A stretch of 57,773 bases of DNA from Paludibacteraceae bacterium (GTDB lineage: Bacteria; Bacteroidota; Bacteroidia; Bacteroidales; Paludibacteraceae). A program made the position numbers and the translations under genes. Location: contig CAJOMJ010000004.1 of NCBI GenBank assembly GCA_905235505.1, positions 1 through 57,773 on the forward strand. Reading direction: 5' to 3'. Below the pieces are notes generated by a model that was not told the origin of the DNA, searched no databases, and saw only the letters and a list, made by a program, of their open reading frames with translations. Below, piece by piece: positions 19,959-31,891 of the stretch. Every line of letters begins with the position of its first letter. Position 1 is the stretch's first letter.

Positions 19959-19989
19959 TTGTGCATGTTAAAAATATATACTATCTTTG
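19959..19989 (+). promoter_or_regulatory. promoter of the vWA/tubulin-like operon
   Basis: TTG (19959-19961) followed by TATCTTTG (19982-19989), 20 nt between, a strong match to the Bacteroidota consensus. The predicted start is near 19995, giving a ~500-nt leader before the vWA ATG at 20499. Confidence 0.7.
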
Positions 19990-19994
19990 CAGCC

Positions 19995-20456
19995 GAATCT
20001 AACGCCGTACTATTATTCAAAAGGTAGAATAATTAATTATATTAATTATTTGTCTGGAAGATAATGGTATTGTGATGGGTTGGATTTTCACATGTATGTA
20101 GGATTACATATTTTGTGGTTGGAATCTGTGGAGACTGCGAAGTGTCGCGAAATGTTGAAACAGAACATTATTATAGTAATGGCGTTTATTGACGCTTTGT
20201 ATTTGACTGAAAGCTTAGCAACTTTAAAGGTTAGATAGTACAAAGTAACAATAGATGCTTACGGATATGATTATAACCATCGCGTTCTGCGATGTATATA
20301 CGGCAAATGATGATGTCGTATATATTGGAATTATCATATCAGCGTAGGTTTCATTGTTGTTTGTTAATCTAACGGTATGTTAAGGCCTCAGTCGGGTAAA
20401 CAACAGCGAGGTCTACGTTTGTTTTTATATATAGCTAATGTGGAATATGTCAATAG
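19995..20456 (+). ncRNA. long structured 5' leader (possible cis-regulatory RNA or small RNA)
   Basis: No open frame of useful length. Hairpins seen by eye: CATCGC/GCGATG with a 5-nt loop (20278-20294); immediately after it a 10-bp stem ATATACGGCA/TGTCGTATAT with an 8-nt loop (20296-20323); and GGCCTC/GAGGTC (20384-20413), closed further by CGTAG (20343-20347) with CTACG (20413-20417). The last stem is followed by TTTGTTTTT (20418-20426), which could be a terminator or attenuator. It matches no riboswitch class I know. Confidence 0.45.
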
Positions 20457-20498
20457 ATGGCATTCAAAACAGAGTATTTACATAAAAACAAACGAAAT

Positions 20499-21620
20499 AT
20501 GAAAAGACCTATTTTATCACTATTATTTATTTTTGCTATTTCATTCTCCGGTTATGCCCAGTTGCGTAAGTCGGAGCATTGGATATTTGTGTGGGATGTA
20601 ACATTGTCAATGTACGGCTACAATAATGAAAAGGATACTAAGTCTTTGTTTCCTGGGGCATTGGAATATTTGAGTTCACCGCGAAAAGAATATGTTGACA
20701 AAAAAAACATAAGCGACATGAAGGGAGGTATATATATCGAAAAATATGATATATATGACAAAGTGAAAAATGTATTGACGGAACGGATAATGCAGATAGA
20801 CGAGGATGAACTCGGTGAGATAAGTTTAATTCTATTCAATAACAAAGTTCTTGATATTTATACTGTGAGTGCGACAGCTAAAGGCAAAAATGATATATGT
20901 GCATACATAGAGAAATACAGCAATTTGCAACTTACCCGTACAAATATTCAGACGTCACTTGTTTCGGCAATGAATTTGGCAATCGAGACACGAGATGACA
21001 GAAATATTATAATGTTATTGACAGACGGTGACCATAATATGAAACAACCGTCAAAACAGGAATTCTATAATACGTTAGACGAATTTTGCAGTTTTGCAGA
21101 GCCTAATGATGCATATTTGTTTTACGTAATGCTTACAGATTTTGCATTGGAGAAGGATCCGGCGATGCTTCCATATTTGGAAGCATGCAAGAGGATAAAG
21201 GTTATTCCTCCTGATGAAGAGTTGCGTCTTCCTGTGAATGTTCAGTTTAGTGGTTCAATCCTGTATAATCTGCAGGATGAGGGTGAAAATACCGATTTTG
21301 ATATATCAGTGGAAACTGGGGGGGATTTACCTGATTCTTATCGTTTGCGGACGGTGTGCGAGTCTAATGATTATTTCGAAGTTGATACCGTCGGGCAGAA
21401 GCCGATAGATGGCAAACTGAAAGTTGCAGTGCGACTGAAAGAAGGAGTAACCGTGCGTGATTTGGAGCAAGCATTCCCTCGTACGTACAATAAGAAACTG
21501 AATATACATATAGAACCGGTTGAGAATGACCCGTATGTGGTATTGCTGAATGAAGACTGCCAATTAGAGGTGGTTAACAAGGCTGAGAGAACAATGATAA
21601 TTCGTATAAATCAAAAGTAA
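20499..21620 (+). CDS. secreted von Willebrand factor A domain protein
   Basis: 373 aa from the ATG at 20499, which gives a clean signal peptide (MKRPILSLLFIFAISFSGYA|Q); an in-frame ATG 14 codons upstream adds only basic residues. The vWA domain starts at once: HWIFVWDVTLSMYG has a DxTxS form of the metal-ion-dependent adhesion site (D33, T35, S37), a later Thr lies in LTRTNIQTSL, and NIIMLLTDGDHN is the third MIDAS segment. A beta-rich C-terminal domain (about 255-373) is unassigned. No lipobox, so probably periplasmic. First gene of the tubulin-like operon. Confidence 0.8.
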   Translation: MKRPILSLLFIFAISFSGYAQLRKSEHWIFVWDVTLSMYGYNNEKDTKSLFPGALEYLSSPRKEYVDKKNISDMKGGIYIEKYDIYDKVKNVLTERIMQIDEDELGEISLILFNNKVLDIYTVSATAKGKNDICAYIEKYSNLQLTRTNIQTSLVSAMNLAIETRDDRNIIMLLTDGDHNMKQPSKQEFYNTLDEFCSFAEPNDAYLFYVMLTDFALEKDPAMLPYLEACKRIKVIPPDEELRLPVNVQFSGSILYNLQDEGENTDFDISVETGGDLPDSYRLRTVCESNDYFEVDTVGQKPIDGKLKVAVRLKEGVTVRDLEQAFPRTYNKKLNIHIEPVENDPYVVLLNEDCQLEVVNKAERTMIIRINQK

Positions 21621-21629
21621 CTTGAGAAA

Positions 21630-22568
21630 ATGAAAAGCCGCACATTTTTTTTGTTATGTATCATAACTGTGGTATGCAGTTGTGAGAGAGTTGAAGATGC
21701 TATTGAGCATGCAGGAGAATTGAACTTCGGCAAGGCGGAATATGTAAGAGGTTGGTGGTTGGGACTTAAACCAAAGAATCCGTTGTTGACAGATACAATA
21801 TTTTTCGATTACGAGAATATGGAAGCGGGCGCTCCCGTTGTCTTTGAGTTGGTTTCGCAGAGCGGTGCTCAAATGAATAATGCCGAGTTGTGTGTACTTA
21901 AAGAAAGTGAGACGGGCATTGACACGGTCTGGTGCAGAGATAACTGTTTTACCGTGGTGCCACCGCAAGAGAGTGTAATAATAGGTTTGAGATTTAAGGA
22001 TGGTGAAAAAAGTGATAATTACGGCTGGACATTGCGAGTGCGTGATGCCGGAAATGTGGAGCGTCTTGTATTTCCGGAAGGCAATGTGTCAACAAAAGAT
22101 AATGAGAATCCTGCTGTACTTACCTTTAAAGCTCAGTTGACCAAACATTTGAATACTGCCCGTACGGTGACTGATACGATTCTGATATTAATAATATTGT
22201 TTCTGTCGCTCTGGATATTGCTGTTGCGTTATTTGGTGTTTGACCGTTTCGGAATGAAAAAACTCATAATAGAGGACAAGAGTTCAGAGCACAAGATTGA
22301 GATACGCGGTGCGTTGTCGTTGTGCCTGACAGCCAAACAACAAAAACAGCGTGTATGGGAAAGAGTCTTTGTGGGCAAGCGTTTGTATTATGTGAATGAT
22401 TATTTTGAAGATGGTGATATATTGATAACTCCGCGTAATAAGAAGACTGTGAAGTTGAAGGCAGCGGACGAATACAACTTGTCGCAATACACAATATCAA
22501 AAGATGATGAAAATCCGCTTCAATTGTATAACAGCAAACATGCGAAGATGGATTTGCATATAGTATGA
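21630..22568 (+). CDS. lipoprotein-like single-pass membrane protein, unknown
   Basis: 312 aa, 9 bp after the vWA gene. Signal with possible lipobox (ITVVCSC, Cys 18), an outer domain of about 165 residues, one TM helix (about 185-206, TILILIILFLSLWILLLRYL) and a basic ~105-residue C-terminal domain predicted to be cytoplasmic (IEDKSSEHKIEIRGALSL...). No family recognised. If the lipobox is used it would be anchored at both ends of its outer domain. Topology makes it a candidate link between the vWA protein outside and the tubulin-like protein inside. Confidence 0.7.
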   Translation: MKSRTFFLLCIITVVCSCERVEDAIEHAGELNFGKAEYVRGWWLGLKPKNPLLTDTIFFDYENMEAGAPVVFELVSQSGAQMNNAELCVLKESETGIDTVWCRDNCFTVVPPQESVIIGLRFKDGEKSDNYGWTLRVRDAGNVERLVFPEGNVSTKDNENPAVLTFKAQLTKHLNTARTVTDTILILIILFLSLWILLLRYLVFDRFGMKKLIIEDKSSEHKIEIRGALSLCLTAKQQKQRVWERVFVGKRLYYVNDYFEDGDILITPRNKKTVKLKAADEYNLSQYTISKDDENPLQLYNSKHAKMDLHIV

Positions 22569-22627
22569 CATGAATATATTTGTCAAATATTGAAAATGAA
22601 ATTAATCCAACAAAATATATAAACAAT

Positions 22628-25420
22628 ATGAGAACAAAATTAAGAAAGACCTTCTATATCGGCTTAGGAGGCACGGGTATGAATACTATCCTTCGTACCA
22701 AGAAAATGTTTGTTGATAATTATGGTGGAAAAGTTCCGCCCATGATTGGTTTTTTGGGAATAGACACGGATGGAGGAGTGTATGATAAGAAATTGCAAGC
22801 CAAAGATGGTTCTGATGTAGTGCTTGAGCGATTTGAGCAATGCTCTATCAGTGTAAGAAACCCGATAGATTATTACAACGCAAACCGCAGGCAACTATCA
22901 TGGCTGCCTGAGAACAATGTACGGATGATTCAGAATCTTGACAAAGGTGCAGGTCAGGTTCGTACCAATGGTCGTTTGGCACTGATTAATAACATTACGA
23001 ATGTTAAGACTTCCATTTCAAATGTATATGCACAGATAAGCAGTAATATAATTATTGACAATCCTATATATGAGTTGATGCCGGATAATGTGGTTGATGT
23101 TCACATTGTTTTCAGTATATGTGGCGGAACTGGCTGCGGAACATTTTTGGATTTGGCATATTTGCTGAGGAGTATGTATAATTCAGGTCCCCGCGGTGTG
23201 AATATATGCGGATATGGTGTATTGCCGAATGTGTTCCATGAGATGAACAAGGTAGGTAATGCTATGGCAAAGACCAAGCCCAATGCATACGCGGCCATAC
23301 AGGATCTTGACTTTCTGATGCATCTGGGTACCAATGACAAAGCGGTTCATTTTGACTGGATAAGTGCCGAATACGATGCAAAAGAACCCCCGTTTGATGC
23401 CTTCTTCTTTATTGATAACAAGAATGACAACAATATAGTTTATAGTCATGTTGACAATCTTGCAGAAATGATAAGTCTGGCATTGGTAAGCGCAGCGGGT
23501 CAGATAGGTACTGAAACAGCAAGCATCACCGATAATGTGGAGAAATGCATGATAGAAGGTGATTTGGACGTTCAGAATAAGAGGGCTTGGGCATCATGTA
23601 TAGGTGCGAGTCAGATAGTATTCCGAGGGAGTGAGTTGGCAAAGGTATATGGTTTGCTTGTAAAGCAGCGTATCATACAAAGAATGCTTAACGCTTGCAA
23701 GAGTGGTGACGAGGAAGCTAACCGTTGGATAGATCTTCCTGAAGTAAATATTCGCGAAAACAAAGGTCAGGACAATGTTATCAATTTCCTTTGCTCGTCA
23801 ACTGTAAAAGACTTTGACATTGATGACAAGGAAGCTTTGCGTCCTGAACCTATAGTGGATGATTTCCAGAAACGCACATTGGAGCAGGTGGCAAGAATGT
23901 CACAGAAGAATCTTCTGGAGCTTCAGGAACGCGTACAAGCACAACTAACTGCTGAAGTACACAAATTGCTTTCTATTGGTGATTGCGGTGTAACTTACGC
24001 AGATGATACATTGTTAGGCATAACCCGTCAACTGAATTTGTTTACTGATGAGATGACTCACGAAAAAGAAGAGTTGGAAGACAGTATCTCAGGAATTGAA
24101 GCCAAACAGAAAGCTGCAATAGAAGAACTGAAGAGGTATGCTGACAAGAAGTTAAAATTTAATAGCAAACTTCAGGAGCGTATAGACGATGTAAAGCAGA
24201 TTACGAAGAATCTGATCAGGACGAAGATAGAGATTATACGCCGCGTAAGTGCTATACAATTCTTTAACGGATTGCTCGTAAAAGTTGAGGGAGAGTATCA
24301 GCGTGTAATAAACATAAAGCAGATGTTGCAAAAACAAGCTGATGAAATATCGCAGGAACTGACGCGCAGGAAGAATCAGAGTACATCTCTTAACACGGTT
24401 GAGGTGGATTTGTCGGAAGAATCGTGGGATTTGATTAAAGTATCGGATGAGACTCTTGTGATTTCCGAGTTCATACAGAATCTTCCCTCAAAGAATTTGT
24501 ATTATCTGAATGATTCAGCCGAGTTGTCTCTTGCTCTGAATAAATATGCAGAGCAACTTCCGGTATATAAACAATGGGAAGAAAAGACCATAGATGACGT
24601 AATTAACGAGAAGACCGACGAGCAGTTCATGCAGATAGTGAAGCGTGCGATGGACAAGGCTATGCCGTTTATGAAGATTAATGGTCATGGCAAACTTACC
24701 ACTCGCGGAAAGAAAGAAGTACAACAGGCAATCAACCGATATTATTTTGTTTGTCTTCCGGACAGCAAGAACAGTCGTTTCACAAAGAATAATAATTTCA
24801 AGAAGATGAATGACAGTACGCTGAATGTGTCGTTTACTTCCACAGGCTTGAACGACCGCATTATTATTTATCGTCAGGACGGCACAGTGCCTGCATTTGC
24901 AATAGACGGAGTAGAACTTTACGAGCGTGAGGGCGGTAGGAGCGATACAAACTTCCACTTCGACTTGAATATTGAGCAGCGAATGAAAGACGAGCACTAT
25001 CAGATGATGCCGAAGGAGTCGTCAGATGATGCTTTGGCATATTGGGTAACCGGTTTGATATTCGGACTGATAAAATATGATGAGCAGAAGCGAACATATT
25101 TCTATTATGACGAGGAGAACGGTGATCCTATGGATAATTGCTGGTATAACACAGGTGAGCACTACCGTGATCAGGCGTTCAATTTCTTTGACAGAAATCT
25201 CAAGACAATTCAAGGGAGATTTGAGGACCTGATAGATGAGAAAATCAACAATATGGGTAAAGATAATTACAAGCTGTTGATAGCAGATGTCCGTCAGAAT
25301 TATGTTGAGAAGTATTCACAAGTGCCCGTTCAGTTCAAGTCAAATACAAGGAATCAGACACCTGTAAAAGAGTTGATGCAGCGAGAGGTTACTTATGTAA
25401 AGAAAGAGTTGGGGAAATAA
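22628..25420 (+). CDS. tubulin-like protein (Tubulin_2 / FtsZ-like family)
   Basis: 930 aa from the ATG at 22628 (a TTG 16 codons earlier is less likely). Begins RKTFYIGLGGTGMNT, the N-terminal glycine loop of a Rossmann-type GTPase, and has SICGGTGCGTFLDLAYLL (about residues 162-179), the tubulin/FtsZ signature GGGTGS/T in CGGTGCGT form. A long coiled coil (about 475-580) follows, then a ~350-residue C-terminal region. It is much larger than FtsZ (about 400 aa) and belongs with the 'tubulin-like' family PF13809. Probably a cytoplasmic polymer-forming GTPase. A vWA gene is upstream and a protease gene follows 21 bp downstream. Confidence 0.8.
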   Translation: MRTKLRKTFYIGLGGTGMNTILRTKKMFVDNYGGKVPPMIGFLGIDTDGGVYDKKLQAKDGSDVVLERFEQCSISVRNPIDYYNANRRQLSWLPENNVRMIQNLDKGAGQVRTNGRLALINNITNVKTSISNVYAQISSNIIIDNPIYELMPDNVVDVHIVFSICGGTGCGTFLDLAYLLRSMYNSGPRGVNICGYGVLPNVFHEMNKVGNAMAKTKPNAYAAIQDLDFLMHLGTNDKAVHFDWISAEYDAKEPPFDAFFFIDNKNDNNIVYSHVDNLAEMISLALVSAAGQIGTETASITDNVEKCMIEGDLDVQNKRAWASCIGASQIVFRGSELAKVYGLLVKQRIIQRMLNACKSGDEEANRWIDLPEVNIRENKGQDNVINFLCSSTVKDFDIDDKEALRPEPIVDDFQKRTLEQVARMSQKNLLELQERVQAQLTAEVHKLLSIGDCGVTYADDTLLGITRQLNLFTDEMTHEKEELEDSISGIEAKQKAAIEELKRYADKKLKFNSKLQERIDDVKQITKNLIRTKIEIIRRVSAIQFFNGLLVKVEGEYQRVINIKQMLQKQADEISQELTRRKNQSTSLNTVEVDLSEESWDLIKVSDETLVISEFIQNLPSKNLYYLNDSAELSLALNKYAEQLPVYKQWEEKTIDDVINEKTDEQFMQIVKRAMDKAMPFMKINGHGKLTTRGKKEVQQAINRYYFVCLPDSKNSRFTKNNNFKKMNDSTLNVSFTSTGLNDRIIIYRQDGTVPAFAIDGVELYEREGGRSDTNFHFDLNIEQRMKDEHYQMMPKESSDDALAYWVTGLIFGLIKYDEQKRTYFYYDEENGDPMDNCWYNTGEHYRDQAFNFFDRNLKTIQGRFEDLIDEKINNMGKDNYKLLIADVRQNYVEKYSQVPVQFKSNTRNQTPVKELMQREVTYVKKELGK

Positions 25421-25441
25421 AGGTCTAAAAAGATTATTGAT

Positions 25442-28400
25442 ATGCGGCATTCTGTAAATATCATGTTCGGCAAGCAGGCAGGTGACTGTCTGCTTGCCAT
25501 GCACAATTATATTCTTCGCATGGGGGACAATGAAACCGTAAACTACTACCGTTCATATCTATTCAATACTGAGAACAATGGTGTGAATATAATGCAGGTG
25601 GAAGAGTTTGAAGGTGAATACCGTTGTGTCACGAAAGAAGAATGGTTGGAAGAAGATATTACCCAATCGTTTCCTAAATTTGTGCAAGAGATTCATCGTC
25701 AGACGATAACAACAAATAGTAGGTGTGATTTTGCCAATCTGCATCTATGCATGTTTGTGCCATTGCTTGAAGACGTGAAGAAAATATGTGCATATATAAA
25801 TGCGATTGAGAAGGGCGGGTTTCACTATGTAGATATAGATGTGGTATGTCTTGCAGGTGATATATGCCAGAATGTGTTTTCTGATTATTATTCGGATTTG
25901 GATCTACTCGGGCAACAGAAGCGGACTGGTGATAGTTTGAAGTTATTGTGTGAGTATAGAAAAAAACATCCTCTGTTGCAGCATTTGGTAATTATTCAGG
26001 ATTATCAGAACGGAGGAGTAGCCTTGTCGCTCCAACAGGATTCGTTGACACGTATTTTAGGAGAGTTGTCATTGCTGATGATAGAAGATTACAGGAGTTT
26101 GTTTGGCAATCTGCGTTCCGAAGCAGATTTCCAGACGCTCGGTTTGTCGATGTTGCAATTGGATAAATTTTATTTCCAAGAATATATCTTTAGAAAAGCA
26201 CTAAAAAAAATAGCAGAGCAGGAAAATATATCAGTTGAGAAAGTAGATATAAATGCGGCATCGAAGAGAGCCAATGATCTACTGAGGCCTTGGCTTAAAC
26301 TGCTAAGTGAAACATATAGAAAAGAGATAAAAGTCTCTTTTGATAGGAACGAAACAGAGCAGGAAATAGTAGCTAAAGTTGATGGCTATCTGCAGACTCG
26401 ATTTGAGGAGATGCGCGAACAATTGGAGTCATATATAAAAGATGATCAGTTGTCATTACCGGAAAAGAAGGCAATACTTTCCGCAATTCTGGGTCATGAT
26501 GACGAACTGTTTGTCAATGATTTGTATGATGAAGATATATTAAGTATTCACGATTTGGAGAAAGAGGCTGTTGAGCAATTTACCATTACAAACAACTATA
26601 TATTGTCTCATACAGACAGAACGTCTGAGGCTTTGCTGTCAGATAACGGCGAGGACGCGTATTATCCGATAGATGAGATGCGTAGCAACCGAATTAAACT
26701 GCGCAGGACGATGGGATATATCAGAGAGTTGGAGGAAGAGCAAACACGCCTGAAAGAGCAGATGCAATTGCAGGAACATTCGACGGACAGTTTTGTAGGT
26801 GATGGAGAGTTTACCATTGGCGAACGTAAGTACAAACTTCTTCCGCAAGTGAATGAGATTCCCCTCCAAGAGCAATATATACCTCATCCGACGACAATAA
26901 CCTCGATGGATTTAAGCAGTATGATGCCTGATGTGAAAGACCAGGGAGCTCAGGGAACATGTCTTGCATTCTCACTCACAAGTATATTTGAATATCTTTA
27001 TAAGAAAAATACAGGTGAGGATATTGATTTGAGTGAACAATTCCTATACTACAATGCAAGAGAGAGGGCAGGTCAGACAGAAGAAGATTGTGGCTCTGTG
27101 CTGAACTTTGCAGTAGAGAGTTTGGCAGAGAAGGGTATTTGTACTGAAGAAAAATGGCAGTATGGAACAGCCGAAACAACTTATAATATCCGTCCATCAG
27201 CTGAGGCATACGAAGACGCTCTTGACAGGAAACTTGCCGGAGCTAAGAATGTGGCGCTTGATGTCGATGCTATTCGTTCAGCTTTGTCGGATGGTCATCC
27301 GGTTGTTTTCAGCACCAGATTGTATGATAGTTTCGGCAAAGGCGTAGCAGGTTTTGTGTCTATGCCAACAGCAGAAGAGCGCGCATTGGCGGACGAGACC
27401 ATAAACAGAAATCATGCGATGGTGATATGCGGATATAATGATGATGCCCGCGCTTTCAAAGTGAGAAATTCTTGGGGAACAGATTTCGGTAATGGCGGCT
27501 ACGTAATGATGCCATATTCTTATATAACTGATGCAACTCTAACTAATTATGCTGCAATTCTCACTGATATTGAACTTGCCAGGACAATTACAGAGAAGGT
27601 GACAATCAGACCGGGCGCTACTCAAATACCGCATCTCGAATTTGACAAGAACGATACGGCAGCGCAGTTCGGCATAAACAGTATATTGCTCGATGAAACA
27701 AAAGCAGAGTTGCAAAAATTGGAGCTCAAAGATAAGGTATATAGTACATATTGCCTCAATATGAAGCAGAATCTGAAGAATCCTAACATAAGGCAACAGA
27801 TGCGGAAGTCGGCAGATGAATGCTATCAGAGTGATATAGAAGAAAAACAGGTAGTGATAAACAAATTGTTGAAGGAAAAATCGCAGGAATTGACAGCATA
27901 CGAACGTCATGAGTTATGGAAGTTTGTCAAATACGGTGTTGCAGCATTGTTGATGGCAGTGTTCTTTGTTGTGACAGCAGCATTGGACCATAAATATTAT
28001 GTTAGAAGTAACAAATATACAGAGTTGATAGAGAAATGCGAGAAGAGAAGTCCGGGAAATCAGGGAGAAAGTATAAGAGATCCATACAGCAAGAAAAACA
28101 AAGATATTACTGTATTTGAAATGAAAGCCAAGATAAAAGGCTACAAAGTGGCATGCGAGGTGCTGTGTTGGTGTCATAAGTGGTGGCTTGCATTGATATG
28201 TTACAGTGTGACAGGTCTCGCTTTCTTATTGTTCTTCCTTAGATACAAGAGGACCAAACGTGAGTTGGTAGAGACGTATGACGAGAAAATAGAGGATGAG
28301 TCGAGAGCCAAAGGAATACTTGAAAAAAACAAGAATGAACTCGGGATAAAGTTCTATCTTGCCGGCTCAATGCTGACCTACTTCTTCAATACATGTGATG

Positions 28401-29011
28401 CGTTGGAGACCAAAGCACGTATATTGGCTTCATTCATATTGAATATACGCGCACTTACAGAGAAAAATGAAAGAAAATTGAAATGTATGTCGCCCGATGT
28501 ACGGCCACCGTTTATACCTATACTAAAGAATGAGGATTTGGACAGATTCTTTGTCTTGCGAGGTGCAGACATGTTGAAGGATACTCATCTCTACGATTTC
28601 TTTGAAGGATACAAGGTTGACGAGGAGGCATTTTCGTTGTTCCGCAATACGCTTGTTGAACATATCGGAGATATTACAGAGCAGGTGCTGCAAGATTTCA
28701 GCATATACAAATATATGAGCGGAAAAGAGCAATATGCATATCTGACCAACGAGAGACGGCAGATTACAGATTTTCTTGTTGAAATGGATGGGAAATCAGA
28801 AGTCTTTATGTTGTGCAATGATACGATTGCGATAAATCCGTCGAAGTCATTGTATGTGCACATAGAGCCGAATGAGGACCTAATATGGCAGAACACCTAC
28901 AGACGTGCTTTCTCCATCCCGCCTGTATGCGTGAATATAAAATCACGGTTCAAAATCATTCTCTTGAGACTTCTTGATATGAATCTTGATCAGATAGAGT
29001 GGTACAAATAG
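25442..29011 (+). CDS. large membrane protein with papain-like (C1A) cysteine protease domain
   Basis: 1189 aa, no signal peptide. Residues 1-480 are an unassigned, mostly helical region (MRHSVNIMFGKQAGDCLLA at the start). Residues about 490-720 are a papain-type domain with every catalytic position: Gln501 (oxyanion hole) and Cys507 in VKDQGAQGTCLAFS, exactly six residues apart as in papain, His658 in NRNHAMVICGY and Asn676 in VRNSWGTDFGNGGY. Two TM helices (about 828-847 and 913-934) flank a short basic loop, then a ~240-residue C-terminal domain. With no signal peptide and a TM hairpin, the protease should face the cytoplasm, like the tubulin-like protein encoded just upstream. Confidence 0.8.
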   Translation: MRHSVNIMFGKQAGDCLLAMHNYILRMGDNETVNYYRSYLFNTENNGVNIMQVEEFEGEYRCVTKEEWLEEDITQSFPKFVQEIHRQTITTNSRCDFANLHLCMFVPLLEDVKKICAYINAIEKGGFHYVDIDVVCLAGDICQNVFSDYYSDLDLLGQQKRTGDSLKLLCEYRKKHPLLQHLVIIQDYQNGGVALSLQQDSLTRILGELSLLMIEDYRSLFGNLRSEADFQTLGLSMLQLDKFYFQEYIFRKALKKIAEQENISVEKVDINAASKRANDLLRPWLKLLSETYRKEIKVSFDRNETEQEIVAKVDGYLQTRFEEMREQLESYIKDDQLSLPEKKAILSAILGHDDELFVNDLYDEDILSIHDLEKEAVEQFTITNNYILSHTDRTSEALLSDNGEDAYYPIDEMRSNRIKLRRTMGYIRELEEEQTRLKEQMQLQEHSTDSFVGDGEFTIGERKYKLLPQVNEIPLQEQYIPHPTTITSMDLSSMMPDVKDQGAQGTCLAFSLTSIFEYLYKKNTGEDIDLSEQFLYYNARERAGQTEEDCGSVLNFAVESLAEKGICTEEKWQYGTAETTYNIRPSAEAYEDALDRKLAGAKNVALDVDAIRSALSDGHPVVFSTRLYDSFGKGVAGFVSMPTAEERALADETINRNHAMVICGYNDDARAFKVRNSWGTDFGNGGYVMMPYSYITDATLTNYAAILTDIELARTITEKVTIRPGATQIPHLEFDKNDTAAQFGINSILLDETKAELQKLELKDKVYSTYCLNMKQNLKNPNIRQQMRKSADECYQSDIEEKQVVINKLLKEKSQELTAYERHELWKFVKYGVAALLMAVFFVVTAALDHKYYVRSNKYTELIEKCEKRSPGNQGESIRDPYSKKNKDITVFEMKAKIKGYKVACEVLCWCHKWWLALICYSVTGLAFLLFFLRYKRTKRELVETYDEKIEDESRAKGILEKNKNELGIKFYLAGSMLTYFFNTCDALETKARILASFILNIRALTEKNERKLKCMSPDVRPPFIPILKNEDLDRFFVLRGADMLKDTHLYDFFEGYKVDEEAFSLFRNTLVEHIGDITEQVLQDFSIYKYMSGKEQYAYLTNERRQITDFLVEMDGKSEVFMLCNDTIAINPSKSLYVHIEPNEDLIWQNTYRRAFSIPPVCVNIKSRFKIILLRLLDMNLDQIEWYK

Positions 29012-29044
29012 CAGAACTATAAAAAACAAAGATAGATAAGAATT

Positions 29045-29374
29045 ATGAAGACAAAAATCTTACTTGTAGCAATGCTGATAGCATCGGCGTCGGTATTTAC
29101 ATCCTGCAATACCAAGCAGGCAGATATCTACAGACTGGAGAAATTTACTCACAACCTGTATTTGGAAAGTTACAGTTACACTCCCGAGCAATGGGCGGAA
29201 GCATCCGAAAAATACGATGTGATAAGTGCGGACCTGAGCCGGCATGAGTCAGAGATGACTTCGCAAGAGAAACTCTATGTCAAGAAACTGGAAGCAGAGT
29301 GCTACGCTTTTTTCGGCAAAAACAAAGCTAACGGTTTATGGGAAGACATAAAGGATGTAATGAGAGGTGAATAG
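29045..29374 (+). CDS. small lipoprotein, single DUF6565-like module
   Basis: 109 aa. Lipoprotein signal ending VFTSC (Cys 21). The mature part is one helical module: a leading RLEKFTHNL helix, then YTPEQWAEASEKYDVIS, then a SQEKLYVKKLEAEC helix. The same pattern recurs in tandem in the next gene. I associate it with the Bacteroidota DUF6565 lipoproteins, of unknown function. 33 bp after the protease gene, so in the same operon. Confidence 0.7.
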   Translation: MKTKILLVAMLIASASVFTSCNTKQADIYRLEKFTHNLYLESYSYTPEQWAEASEKYDVISADLSRHESEMTSQEKLYVKKLEAECYAFFGKNKANGLWEDIKDVMRGE

Positions 29375-29437
29375 AATGTAGAATGATTTGTAATTAAAAG
29401 AGTGCAGAAAATAACAGATATAAGAAGAATAGAAACA

Positions 29438-30175
29438 ATGAAAGTGAATTATGTTTGTATGTTGGTAGTAGCATTTCTATTATCAGCATGTAATACGCAT
29501 GAAAACACTCTGGTGGGCGATTTGAATAAATTTGCTAATGAATTGTTCAAAGAATGCGGCAACTATACAGAGGAAGAGTGGAATGAATCTGAAGAATTAT
29601 ATAATGCACTAAAGCTCAGCCTCGAAAGAACCAATCTGACAGAGAAAGAAGAAACTAAAGTGTCAGAAATTCTAAAGATATGTGATATGCAGTATTCATT
29701 AAGACCCGTCAGAAAATTGGAAAAACTTGCAGAAGAGTTGGGTAATTATCAGAATATGACTTCAGAACAGTGGGAAGAGGCGAAGAAAATATATGCTGTG
29801 GTTTTTGAAGACATGACTGCTTATGTGTACTCGTCTGATAGAAAAACTGAGATAGATAGTTTGAAAAAACAGTGTGAGAAGTATTTCTCCATGCAACCTG
29901 TAATAGAGTTACTTGAGTTATGCAAATATATCAAAAACAACAGTGCTGCTATCACATCTGAACAACGTGACAGCGTGAAGGCTCGTCAGGTTGAAATTCA
30001 AAGAATACTTGCAGAATATGAGTATGATGCCGACAAAAGTGAACAAATAGCAGCACTCAACGACACGATAACCACTCGTATAAGCAATACACGTTGGTCA
30101 AGCATAAAGAATACCGTAGTGGAGGAGGGAAAAGGTATGCTTGAAAAGATGTACGAATGGTTGGAGCAGTGGTGA
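29438..30175 (+). CDS. lipoprotein with repeated DUF6565-like modules
   Basis: 245 aa from the ATG at 29438 (signal MKVNYVCMLVVAFLLSAC, Cys 18); a start 12 codons earlier would spoil the signal. Contains two clear modules, each a L.KFA/KLAEEL helix followed by a Y[T/M]xEEWxE/EQWEEAKKIY helix, plus a third more divergent one (LLELCKYIKNNSAAITSEQR). With the preceding gene this makes about four copies of one module in two proteins. The C-terminal amphipathic helix is Trp-rich (MYEWLEQW). Probably outer-membrane or periplasmic, helical. Confidence 0.68.
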   Translation: MKVNYVCMLVVAFLLSACNTHENTLVGDLNKFANELFKECGNYTEEEWNESEELYNALKLSLERTNLTEKEETKVSEILKICDMQYSLRPVRKLEKLAEELGNYQNMTSEQWEEAKKIYAVVFEDMTAYVYSSDRKTEIDSLKKQCEKYFSMQPVIELLELCKYIKNNSAAITSEQRDSVKARQVEIQRILAEYEYDADKSEQIAALNDTITTRISNTRWSSIKNTVVEEGKGMLEKMYEWLEQW

Positions 30176-30318
30176 TGTGTAACGAGAATGTTGTAAACAC
30201 GTTGACGGAATCAAATATATTCAGGTTTAATTCTTCCAACGGGTTTGTATATAGCAATTTATATGCCAGTCGCTAAATTTCTTAAATTGCAATATTTATA
30301 CATTACGAGGAGACTTAT

Positions 30319-31389
30319 ATGTTTGAAAAATTAAAGACATCCAAATCGTACAGAATATTCAATAGTATAGCCAAATCCGCCACCTTTGCATTAGCAATAT
30401 CAATCTTGCTGTTTTCGTTCGAGATGTATAAAGAATTGGATCAGGAGTCGCAGAATAATCAACATTTTATTGAAACAGTTCGTCAGTTGGATGAGGTTAG
30501 ACAATCGCTTTCTACCCGTTTTCTGGGCACCTTCCCTAATTACATTACAGAGATAAACCGAGTGTTCGAGAATTTGCAGGCGCAAGATACTGTTGTTATA
30601 TTTGAGGACGTGCTATATTACGGAATCAAGAGCCGCCCGAATGAATTCAGTCATTTTCAACAGTTGCTTATCAGACATTCACGTCAAGGAGGCAAGGTAA
30701 TAGTGGCATATTACAATAATCATCCGGATGTAATGCAAGACCCTATATGGAATACTGTCTTTCATCGTATGGTGCTTGAAGGACTTATTTCTTCGGCTTA
30801 TGTTCCCAAGATAGGCGAAGAACGTGCTGAAGAGTTCCCCAAAAGGAGAGGAGATTACTCTTGGATGATAAGAATGGATTCGATCATTACAGAGAAATAT
30901 TTTTTGAAAACTTGTCAGGAGAATCGTGATGCTGCGGAGAATATGTGGGAAGGCTATTTGGTGCCTATAGCAAAGGACACCATTTTGAATCGTACTGATG
31001 ATATAGTTGTAAAACGGGTATATCAACAGATTGATTCTATTAAACAGGCGTGTTTGGGAAACGGGAAGAGGTTGGATGATGTTCATTTCGCAGATTACAA
31101 AAGGATGTATTCTGATATGACAGACTGTATAGCTGATTTCTATAAATACAATGGAATAGAACTTATTCCATTGAATGAATATTTGACAATGAGTTGCTGG
31201 TTGATAAAACCTGCCGATGTTAACAGGTCAACAGAGGCTATACTCGCATTTCCGAGCAAGTATGCAAGTGATGAAATAGGATTCTATTCAAAAGATGTAA
31301 GTTTTGCGGATTATATCTCGAAAATGCTTGAAGGTGTACGCTTTGAGGCGGTTAAACCTCAAAGGAGGGCACATAAACTAAGGGACTAA
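30319..31389 (+). CDS. single-pass membrane protein, unknown
   Basis: 356 aa. Lys/Arg-rich N-terminus, one TM helix (about 22-38), coiled-coil-like linker, then a ~290-residue domain predicted outside by the positive-inside rule. An alternating beta/alpha stretch (QAQDTVVIFEDVLYYGIKSR ... GGKVIVAYYNNHP) vaguely recalls phospholipase-D-like folds, but no HKD motif is present; function unknown. A 143-bp gap precedes it and no clear promoter is seen there, so it is probably, but not certainly, part of the same operon. Confidence 0.65.
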   Translation: MFEKLKTSKSYRIFNSIAKSATFALAISILLFSFEMYKELDQESQNNQHFIETVRQLDEVRQSLSTRFLGTFPNYITEINRVFENLQAQDTVVIFEDVLYYGIKSRPNEFSHFQQLLIRHSRQGGKVIVAYYNNHPDVMQDPIWNTVFHRMVLEGLISSAYVPKIGEERAEEFPKRRGDYSWMIRMDSIITEKYFLKTCQENRDAAENMWEGYLVPIAKDTILNRTDDIVVKRVYQQIDSIKQACLGNGKRLDDVHFADYKRMYSDMTDCIADFYKYNGIELIPLNEYLTMSCWLIKPADVNRSTEAILAFPSKYASDEIGFYSKDVSFADYISKMLEGVRFEAVKPQRRAHKLRD

Positions 31390-31435: not shown

Positions 31436-31891
31436 ATGAAGAGATTAATGTTTGTAATTTCATGCGTTGTGACATTTACGATGTATGCATCATGTGCCCC
31501 AAAAGGGTATGTGGACATGGGACTGCCAAGTGGAACTTTATGGAAAGAAAGCAATGAAGATGGGTATTATACGTATTTATCTGCCAAAGGCAAGTTCGGT
31601 AGTTCACTGCCAAATACCGGTCAGTATGAAGAACTTATGGACAATTGTACATGGCAATGGACAGGTAAAGGTTTTAAGGTGACAGGACCTAATGGGAATT
31701 CTTTATATTTCCCGTTTGACGGGTATATAGATTGTGATAGCGAAATGCGAATGGAAAGTAATTCCGCAGTATTATGGACACTTGAGAAAGCAGGTGCAAG
31801 TTGGGCTATGTGTTGCGTGTTGTCAAAGAATCAGAAAGAATGCCTGCCGGAATCGAACTGCTGGAGTTGCTCTGTGAGACTTGTAAAATAA
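31436..31891 (+). CDS. FISUMP (major paralogous) domain lipoprotein
   Basis: 151 aa. Signal with Cys at 20 (MYASCAPKG), then YVDMGLPSGTLWKESN, the standard opening of the Fibrobacter-succinogenes-major-paralogous domain abundant in Bacteroidota surface proteins, and a second motif around TGPNGNSLYFPFDGYIDC. Usual domain length is about 150-200, so this copy is slightly short. It has several extra cysteines near the C-terminus (CCVL, NCWSCS). Last gene of the A+T-rich island. Confidence 0.7.
   Translation: MKRLMFVISCVVTFTMYASCAPKGYVDMGLPSGTLWKESNEDGYYTYLSAKGKFGSSLPNTGQYEELMDNCTWQWTGKGFKVTGPNGNSLYFPFDGYIDCDSEMRMESNSAVLWTLEKAGASWAMCCVLSKNQKECLPESNCWSCSVRLVK

Follow-up and report, generated by a model that had tools for sequence, protein, structure and literature searches.

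A conserved Tubulin_2, papain-type and vWA gene set behind a dispersed structured RNA in a Paludibacteraceae genome

The 57,773-nucleotide (nt) contig CAJOMJ010000004.1 of a Paludibacteraceae bacterium of gut or rumen type (GCA_905235505.1), hereafter the window, carries seven coding sequences (CDS), all on the plus strand between 20499 and 31389 in its listing of open reading frames (ORFs), where the initial annotation had placed a seven-gene system (Table 1). The set is conserved in relatives and contains a Tubulin_2 (FtsZ-like-1) protein and a papain-type peptidase; its von Willebrand factor A (vWA) protein and transmembrane (TM) linker are fused in a related genome, and a structured RNA of a dispersed family lies in front. 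The genes almost certainly form a conserved system; on the wider reading, in which a probably transferred operon would encode a tubulin-like machine anchored in the membrane and be expressed through its structured RNA leader, the evidence leaves us evenly divided. Calls of a signal peptide, a lipobox or a TM segment were in every case made by eye from the sequence; the Pfam scan covered nine ORFs of the window, and each hhalign E-value refers to a single comparison.

Conservation and composition of the gene set

The vWA protein, the linker, the Tubulin_2 protein, the C1 (papain-type) protein and the small lipoprotein are encoded in the same order in all five close loci, which are the window, L001 (a Paludibacteraceae metagenome-assembled genome from roe deer rumen) and the same-genus loci L028 (genome G453), L029 (G427) and L030 (G418). 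The larger lipoprotein occurs in two of the five (window and L001) and the last TM protein in four, being missing from the listed ORFs of at least 100 amino acids (aa) at G418; the neighbourhood is therefore conserved in part, with five families kept throughout and all seven recurring only in L001. Among 101 genomes of relatives, 15 gave any match and four the close type (the window's own genome included), and a phylum search with one sequence matched 8 of 395 genomes, with all matches but one weak and partial. Outside L001, identity to the window is 33-36% for the Tubulin_2 protein, 28-31% for the C1 protein and 31% for the vWA protein; it is 19-24% for the linker and 18-20% for the small lipoprotein, and homology of these two rests partly on gene position.

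The 930-aa protein that had been called tubulin-like belongs to Tubulin_2, scoring 175.6 bits against a PF13809 cut-off of 27 (E 2.3e-51). Members of this family carry a coiled coil followed by a helical C-terminal region; the model of the window's protein has long helices at 409-584, with a mean predicted local distance difference test (pLDDT) score of only 39 for the model. An additional Tubulin_2 gene is present in L001 and in G453, where it is short (405 aa).

The vWA ORF is listed from 20457, and the CDS is taken as 20499-21620. Its Pfam match stays below the Pfam cut-off (E 0.0019 and 0.002), the residues resembling a metal-ion-dependent adhesion site (MIDAS) are invariant in the five loci, and its profile matches the vWA part of a fusion protein in G545, a genome of the same order (hhalign 2.5e-10); the vWA assignment made at first is thereby supported. 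No convincing family was found for the linker in the Pfam scan. The G545 fusion, a single ORF directly preceding Tubulin_2, combines the vWA protein with the TM and cytoplasmic part of the linker, and the latter matches it at 5.7e-11 over 121 columns. Because both are fused in one ORF, this arrangement argues that the outer vWA domain and the predicted inner domain of the linker work as one unit; the trans-envelope reading of the initial annotation gains support from it, and coupling from periplasm to cytoplasm appears likely. The gene after Tubulin_2 in G545 encodes a 770-aa protein with no Pfam match and no detectable similarity to the C1 protein of the window.

The C1 protein (1189 aa) matches PF00112 (Peptidase_C1) at 4.5e-18. 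Gln, Cys, His and Asn make up the active site of papain; by analogy, Q501, C507, H658 and N676, invariant in five of five homologues, would supply the complete set, in keeping with the intact papain-like protease in a membrane protein that had been annotated. The closest solved relative of the protease domain is PDB 3ois (1.2e-31), which we take to be xylellain; unlike 3ois, the domain is here embedded in a large membrane protein. Across the order, the C1 profile matched 153 of 247 genomes, and the listed matches, the window's own set aside, lie nearly all within the papain domain. In another genome of the order, L086 (5228-7381) encodes a papain-like protein that stands alone and has a very long tail rich in Asp and Glu. 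A degenerate tubulin within the C1 protein was considered, since its first 300 aa and C-terminus resemble the Tubulin_2 strand order by eye; the idea was not supported by hhalign (E 0.25 and 0.28), and Tubulin_2 was absent from the Pfam results at E 10 in all five members.

A second Tubulin_2 operon type was found on contig C51 of the window's own genome (L042, 1803-12305) and in six same-genus loci (L038-L041, L045 and L046). Its Tubulin_2 gene is longer, and next comes a gene for a 933-1026-aa protein that begins M-x-P-x-W-I and is a large TM protein in L042; a vWA-TM gene, named by eye, precedes Tubulin_2 in the six same-genus loci, and the L042 contig ends short of that position. The Tubulin_2 proteins of the two types are homologous (profile comparison 3.5e-18), and the vWA profile of the second type weakly matches that of the window type (3.7e-4). 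In the three loci with translations read, a transglutaminase-like ORF (by eye) comes next in L042 and L045 and none in L040; Pfam, run for L042 alone of the three, gets as far as 3.6e-5, and only for a neighbouring 181-aa ORF. The small lipoprotein family is represented in L042 too, with a match of 6e-13 over 83 columns that takes in the signal peptide. Comparisons of the partner proteins of different operon types as one family (0.49, 0.33, 0.35 and 0.04) and of the second-type partner with its own Tubulin_2 protein (0.31) gave no support, and a match of the second-type vWA-TM tail to the linker (0.049) is not claimed. Separately, a second vWA-like motif, DVSGSM, was seen by eye in the alignment, in the C-terminal half of the partner proteins of one subtype: L040 (12417-15362), L038 (6981-9782) and L039 (6701-9502).

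The larger lipoprotein ORF is listed from 29402, with the CDS taken as 29438-30175. The small lipoprotein aligns with its N-terminal part at 28% identity, in line with the annotated shared module. Neither the lipoproteins nor the last gene found a convincing Pfam family; the best NCBIfam result was a lipoprotein match of 4.4e-5, whose 23.8 bits fall short of the cut-off, 100.

Table 1. Features of the gene set and its leader in the window
Feature	Position	Strand	Basis
Promoter	19959..19989	+	TTG 19959-19961, 20 nt spacer, TATCTTTG 19982-19989; read from sequence
Leader RNA, structured; belongs to a dispersed family	20169..20440	+	Covariance model R1, E 6.3e-44 (copy used in building R1)
P3 long-range helix, 5' strand	20341..20352	+	A18 columns 201-212, 99.5% of cells paired, 18 sequences
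Terminator-like stem AGGCCTC/GAGGTCT, then U-rich tract	20383..20426	+	A18 columns 243-253/276-286, pairing in 94.4% of cells
Secreted vWA protein, MIDAS-like D-x-T-x-S	20499..21620	+	Pfam, alignment; signal peptide by eye
Lipoprotein/TM linker, cytoplasmic C-terminal domain	21630..22568	+	Alignment; lipobox and TM by eye
Tubulin_2 (FtsZ-like-1) protein, 930 aa	22628..25420	+	PF13809, 2.3e-51; GGTG motif conserved
Papain-type (C1) peptidase, N-terminal 480 aa without family, two TM	25442..29011	+	PF00112; TM by eye
Small lipoprotein	29045..29374	+	Family common to second Tubulin_2 operon; match partly signal peptide
Larger lipoprotein with same module	29438..30175	+	Only window and L001; lipobox by eye
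N-terminal TM protein	30319..31389	+	No Pfam match; TM by eye; present in 4/5 loci

The dispersed leader RNA

The distance from the promoter to the vWA gene is about 500 nt and contains a structured RNA, an addition beyond the initial annotation. Folding z-scores of the leader are -7.7 in the window (19990-20460), -5.5 in L001 and -4.5 in G427. Rfam gave no match at gathering score in the window, and a permissive scan gave seven (best E 0.46), every one under its gathering score; the RNA is outside Rfam 15, and the search for a published description was limited. The covariance model R1 was built from 18 copies, the window being one of the 18 rows, and these building copies match it by construction. 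The leader RNA was found by DNA search (blastn) in 42 of the 101 genomes of relatives and by R1 in 61, of which 58 are among the 61 genomes of the genus and 3 among the 40 others, where the matches are in other genera of the same order (G472, 1.9e-18; G473, 1.7e-10; G479, 9.3e-17). R1 matches reach 20 in a genome, 20 candidates per genome having been scored under stricter filters; the window's own genome has seven, including further full-length copies at G000:C11:42618-42871, which precedes a 188-aa ORF without Pfam match, and at G000:C2:42764-43014.

The consensus of the 18 copies consists of a hairpin P1, a hairpin P2 with a variable tip, and the helices P3 (GGCGUAGGUUUC paired with the 3' strand GAGGUCUGCGC) and P4 (UGUUGUUUA paired with UAAACAACA). 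The 3' strand of P3 can alternatively pair with GCGAAGGCCUC, giving a terminator-like hairpin with a U-rich tract downstream of it; a simple terminator scan did not list this stem. For P3 and P4 together, 98.9% of cells are paired, against 38-52% when slid, and for P4 and the terminator 96.2%, against 35-49%. Since these two pairings of the 3' end compete, one terminator-like and one long-range, the leader is read as a putative attenuator. It shares with riboswitches and transcription attenuators its leader position, terminator-like stem and mutually exclusive helix, and differs from them in having no known ligand and matching no Rfam family.

The RNA probably acts in cis. It lies before the cassette in four of the five loci, directly before the vWA gene in the window, L001 and G427 (L029), and separated from it in G453 (L028) by one WG-repeat ORF (1.4e-20). 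Elsewhere, the ORF behind the copy encodes a zinc-ribbon protein that matches FHA weakly (L104), a relative of the small lipoproteins (L110, 7.7e-15), a protein whose CsgG match is borderline (L112, 2.7e-4) or a protein without family assignment (L107, L120, L123, L126, L127 and L147); the downstream ORF is ambiguous in L120 (overlapping ORFs) and L127 (start position), and L109 has no downstream ORF of at least 70 aa. A same-strand ORF starts within about 110 nt of 13 of the 14 copies examined downstream, a count that stands without a chance control for random intergenic places, with minus-strand loci taken as not flipped, following the alignments, and with L124 and the alignment rows L106, L108, L111, L114-L117 and L121 left out. 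That an independent trans-acting small RNA or a mobile repeat lies before the operon by chance is rather improbable: a terminator-like 3' end of its own and many copies per genome would suit such an element, but the position before the cassette, the closeness to same-strand ORFs and the conserved competing helix all speak for a leader.

Several observations weigh against an operon expressed through a switching leader of this kind. The P3, P4 and terminator-like pairs show one-sided changes only (G-U for A-U or G-C), and none of the 18 copies has a double change there; the pairs did no better than letter shuffles (432 and 388-500 of the 500 scored as high), and proof by covariation is lacking for these pairs. 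Elsewhere in the consensus, a double change occurs at 4 of 49 pairs. The missing chance control for the proximity count belongs here as well, as does G418, where no leader copy was found by blastn and a single weak R1 match (1.4e-4) lies somewhere in the genome.

Setting of the island and its likely transfer

Promoters of the Bacteroides type have the consensus TTTG/TAnnTTTG, which the predicted promoter resembles. It lies close to where conservation with L001 sets in: the alignment of the window with L001 begins about there, little similarity is found further upstream, and the genes upstream of the island differ between them. Over 20-32 kb, G+C is 0.34-0.42, against 0.40-0.54 in the remaining 1-kb rows of the window, and the GC skew across the island is +0.14 to +0.28; the island is A+T-richer than its neighbours, as had been stated. 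Because of this composition and the resemblance to L001 only from the promoter onward, the island was probably acquired by transfer, as first suggested; movement into different sites in the window and L001 would fit. Neither a mobility gene nor an empty site was demonstrated for it. Matches to a PAP2-like gene (by eye) on its left were obtained in 56 of 61 genomes; in three neighbourhoods of this gene, no alanyl-tRNA synthetase was seen beside it within the approximately 1.5 kb read, and none showed a simple empty junction. In L094 and L096, a relative of the PAP2-like gene comes after a TPR/BatE-like gene (by eye). Viral contigs yielded no confirmed relative; a single unannotated phage record matched at 30% identity over 24% of the query, and four plasmid records matched at 22-34% identity.

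The last gene is preceded by a 143-nt gap. An eighth ORF on the plus strand (31436-31891, 151 aa) with a lipoprotein-like start lies inside the A+T-rich stretch; it has no Pfam match and no counterpart in the ORF lists of the other cassette loci. Downstream in L001 is a gene with a TPM domain (Pfam 7.6e-25).

Relation to known systems and a possible mechanism

In the parts of their account drawn on here, Makarova and Koonin (2010; PMC2875224) describe vWA/FtsZl1 operons with an adjacent vWA gene and lineage-specific membrane genes, frequently but not universally a diverged GTPase or protein kinase gene, and in several genomes an OmpA-family protein, and they predict FtsZ-like-1 proteins to act in membrane-linked machines. 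The predicted protein set of the window is a variant of these systems, which upholds the link drawn in the initial annotation: it shares with them a Tubulin_2 protein, lineage-specific membrane genes and a linked vWA gene, the latter identified by its MIDAS-like residues and the G545 profile match. Unlike them, it has no GTPase, kinase or OmpA gene that Pfam could find among the nine ORFs, and it adds a papain-type protease, a small lipoprotein, a separate linker and a leader of structured RNA; neither "papain" nor "protease" appears in the main text of PMC2875224, supplements apart. A limited literature check, with sources seen in part, found no experimental study of FtsZ-like-1 proteins. A membrane-remodelling or vesicle system, as proposed for such operons in the same text, is conceivable here, if doubtful, and the protease would then be an accessory processing enzyme and not the output: the Tubulin_2 and vWA core is present and most components appear membrane-linked by eye, but GTPase, kinase and OmpA are missing from the Pfam results and the protease retains its active-site set in all five loci.

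The nearest relative among conflict systems is the GAP1-N2 tubulin theme, which Kaur et al. (2020; PMC7159879), in the portions seen, describe for firmicutes and actinobacteria. The window shares with the GAP1-N2 DO-GTPase systems a tubulin-like protein, an extracellular vWA protein and membrane parts, and differs in that no GTPase match was obtained in Pfam, NCBIfam or PADLOC; nothing there matched a GAP1 protein either, the presence of a GAP1 model in these collections being unchecked. A comparable defence function, in which sensed infection would lead to assembly and protease-driven growth arrest, is unlikely. The parts are similar (tubulin, extracellular vWA, peptidase), the distribution is patchy (close type in 4 of 101 genomes), and a methyltransferase-like fragment (by eye) lies near the G418 copy; against this, that single locus is weak evidence, no GTPase was matched, and PADLOC gave weak matches only (0.0083 for the larger lipoprotein and 0.051 for the vWA protein). 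Of the roles first envisaged, polymer formation, control by proteolysis and a part in stress or defence are conjectural.

For the membrane-anchored tubulin-like machine, the following course may be envisaged. The periplasmic vWA domain would sense a ligand or damage, and the linker would relay the signal to the Tubulin_2 protein, which would bind GTP and sit at the inner membrane. Assembly of the Tubulin_2 protein would concentrate and activate the membrane-bound papain-type protease; this in turn would cut one or more targets. Expression would be set by the leader RNA, switching between the terminator-like hairpin and the long-range helix. Activation of the protease by assembly is a tentative proposal. 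Equally speculative is the broader idea that a new riboswitch-like RNA class, with its P1 and P2 domains and its choice between terminator and long-range helix, may control an envelope and signalling regulon; among its members would be the tubulin-like trans-envelope machine, in which assembly driven by GTP would turn on a membrane-bound papain-type protease. To the points already counted against the machine and its leader must be added that the N-terminal 480 aa of the C1 protein have no family match in Pfam, that no target of the protease is known, that the small lipoproteins of L028-L030 share only 18-20% identity with that of the window, and that AlphaFold2 models from three and two input sequences were unusable (mean pLDDT 39 and 30).

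The vWA-linker fusion provides a concrete and testable wiring for FtsZ-like-1 machines. Because cysteine-enzyme folds occur in two Tubulin_2 operon types, proteolysis is suggested to be part of the job of the machine. The RNA, matched in nearly all genomes of the genus (58 of 61), offers a route to the genes that are expressed with the machine, and perhaps to its signal.

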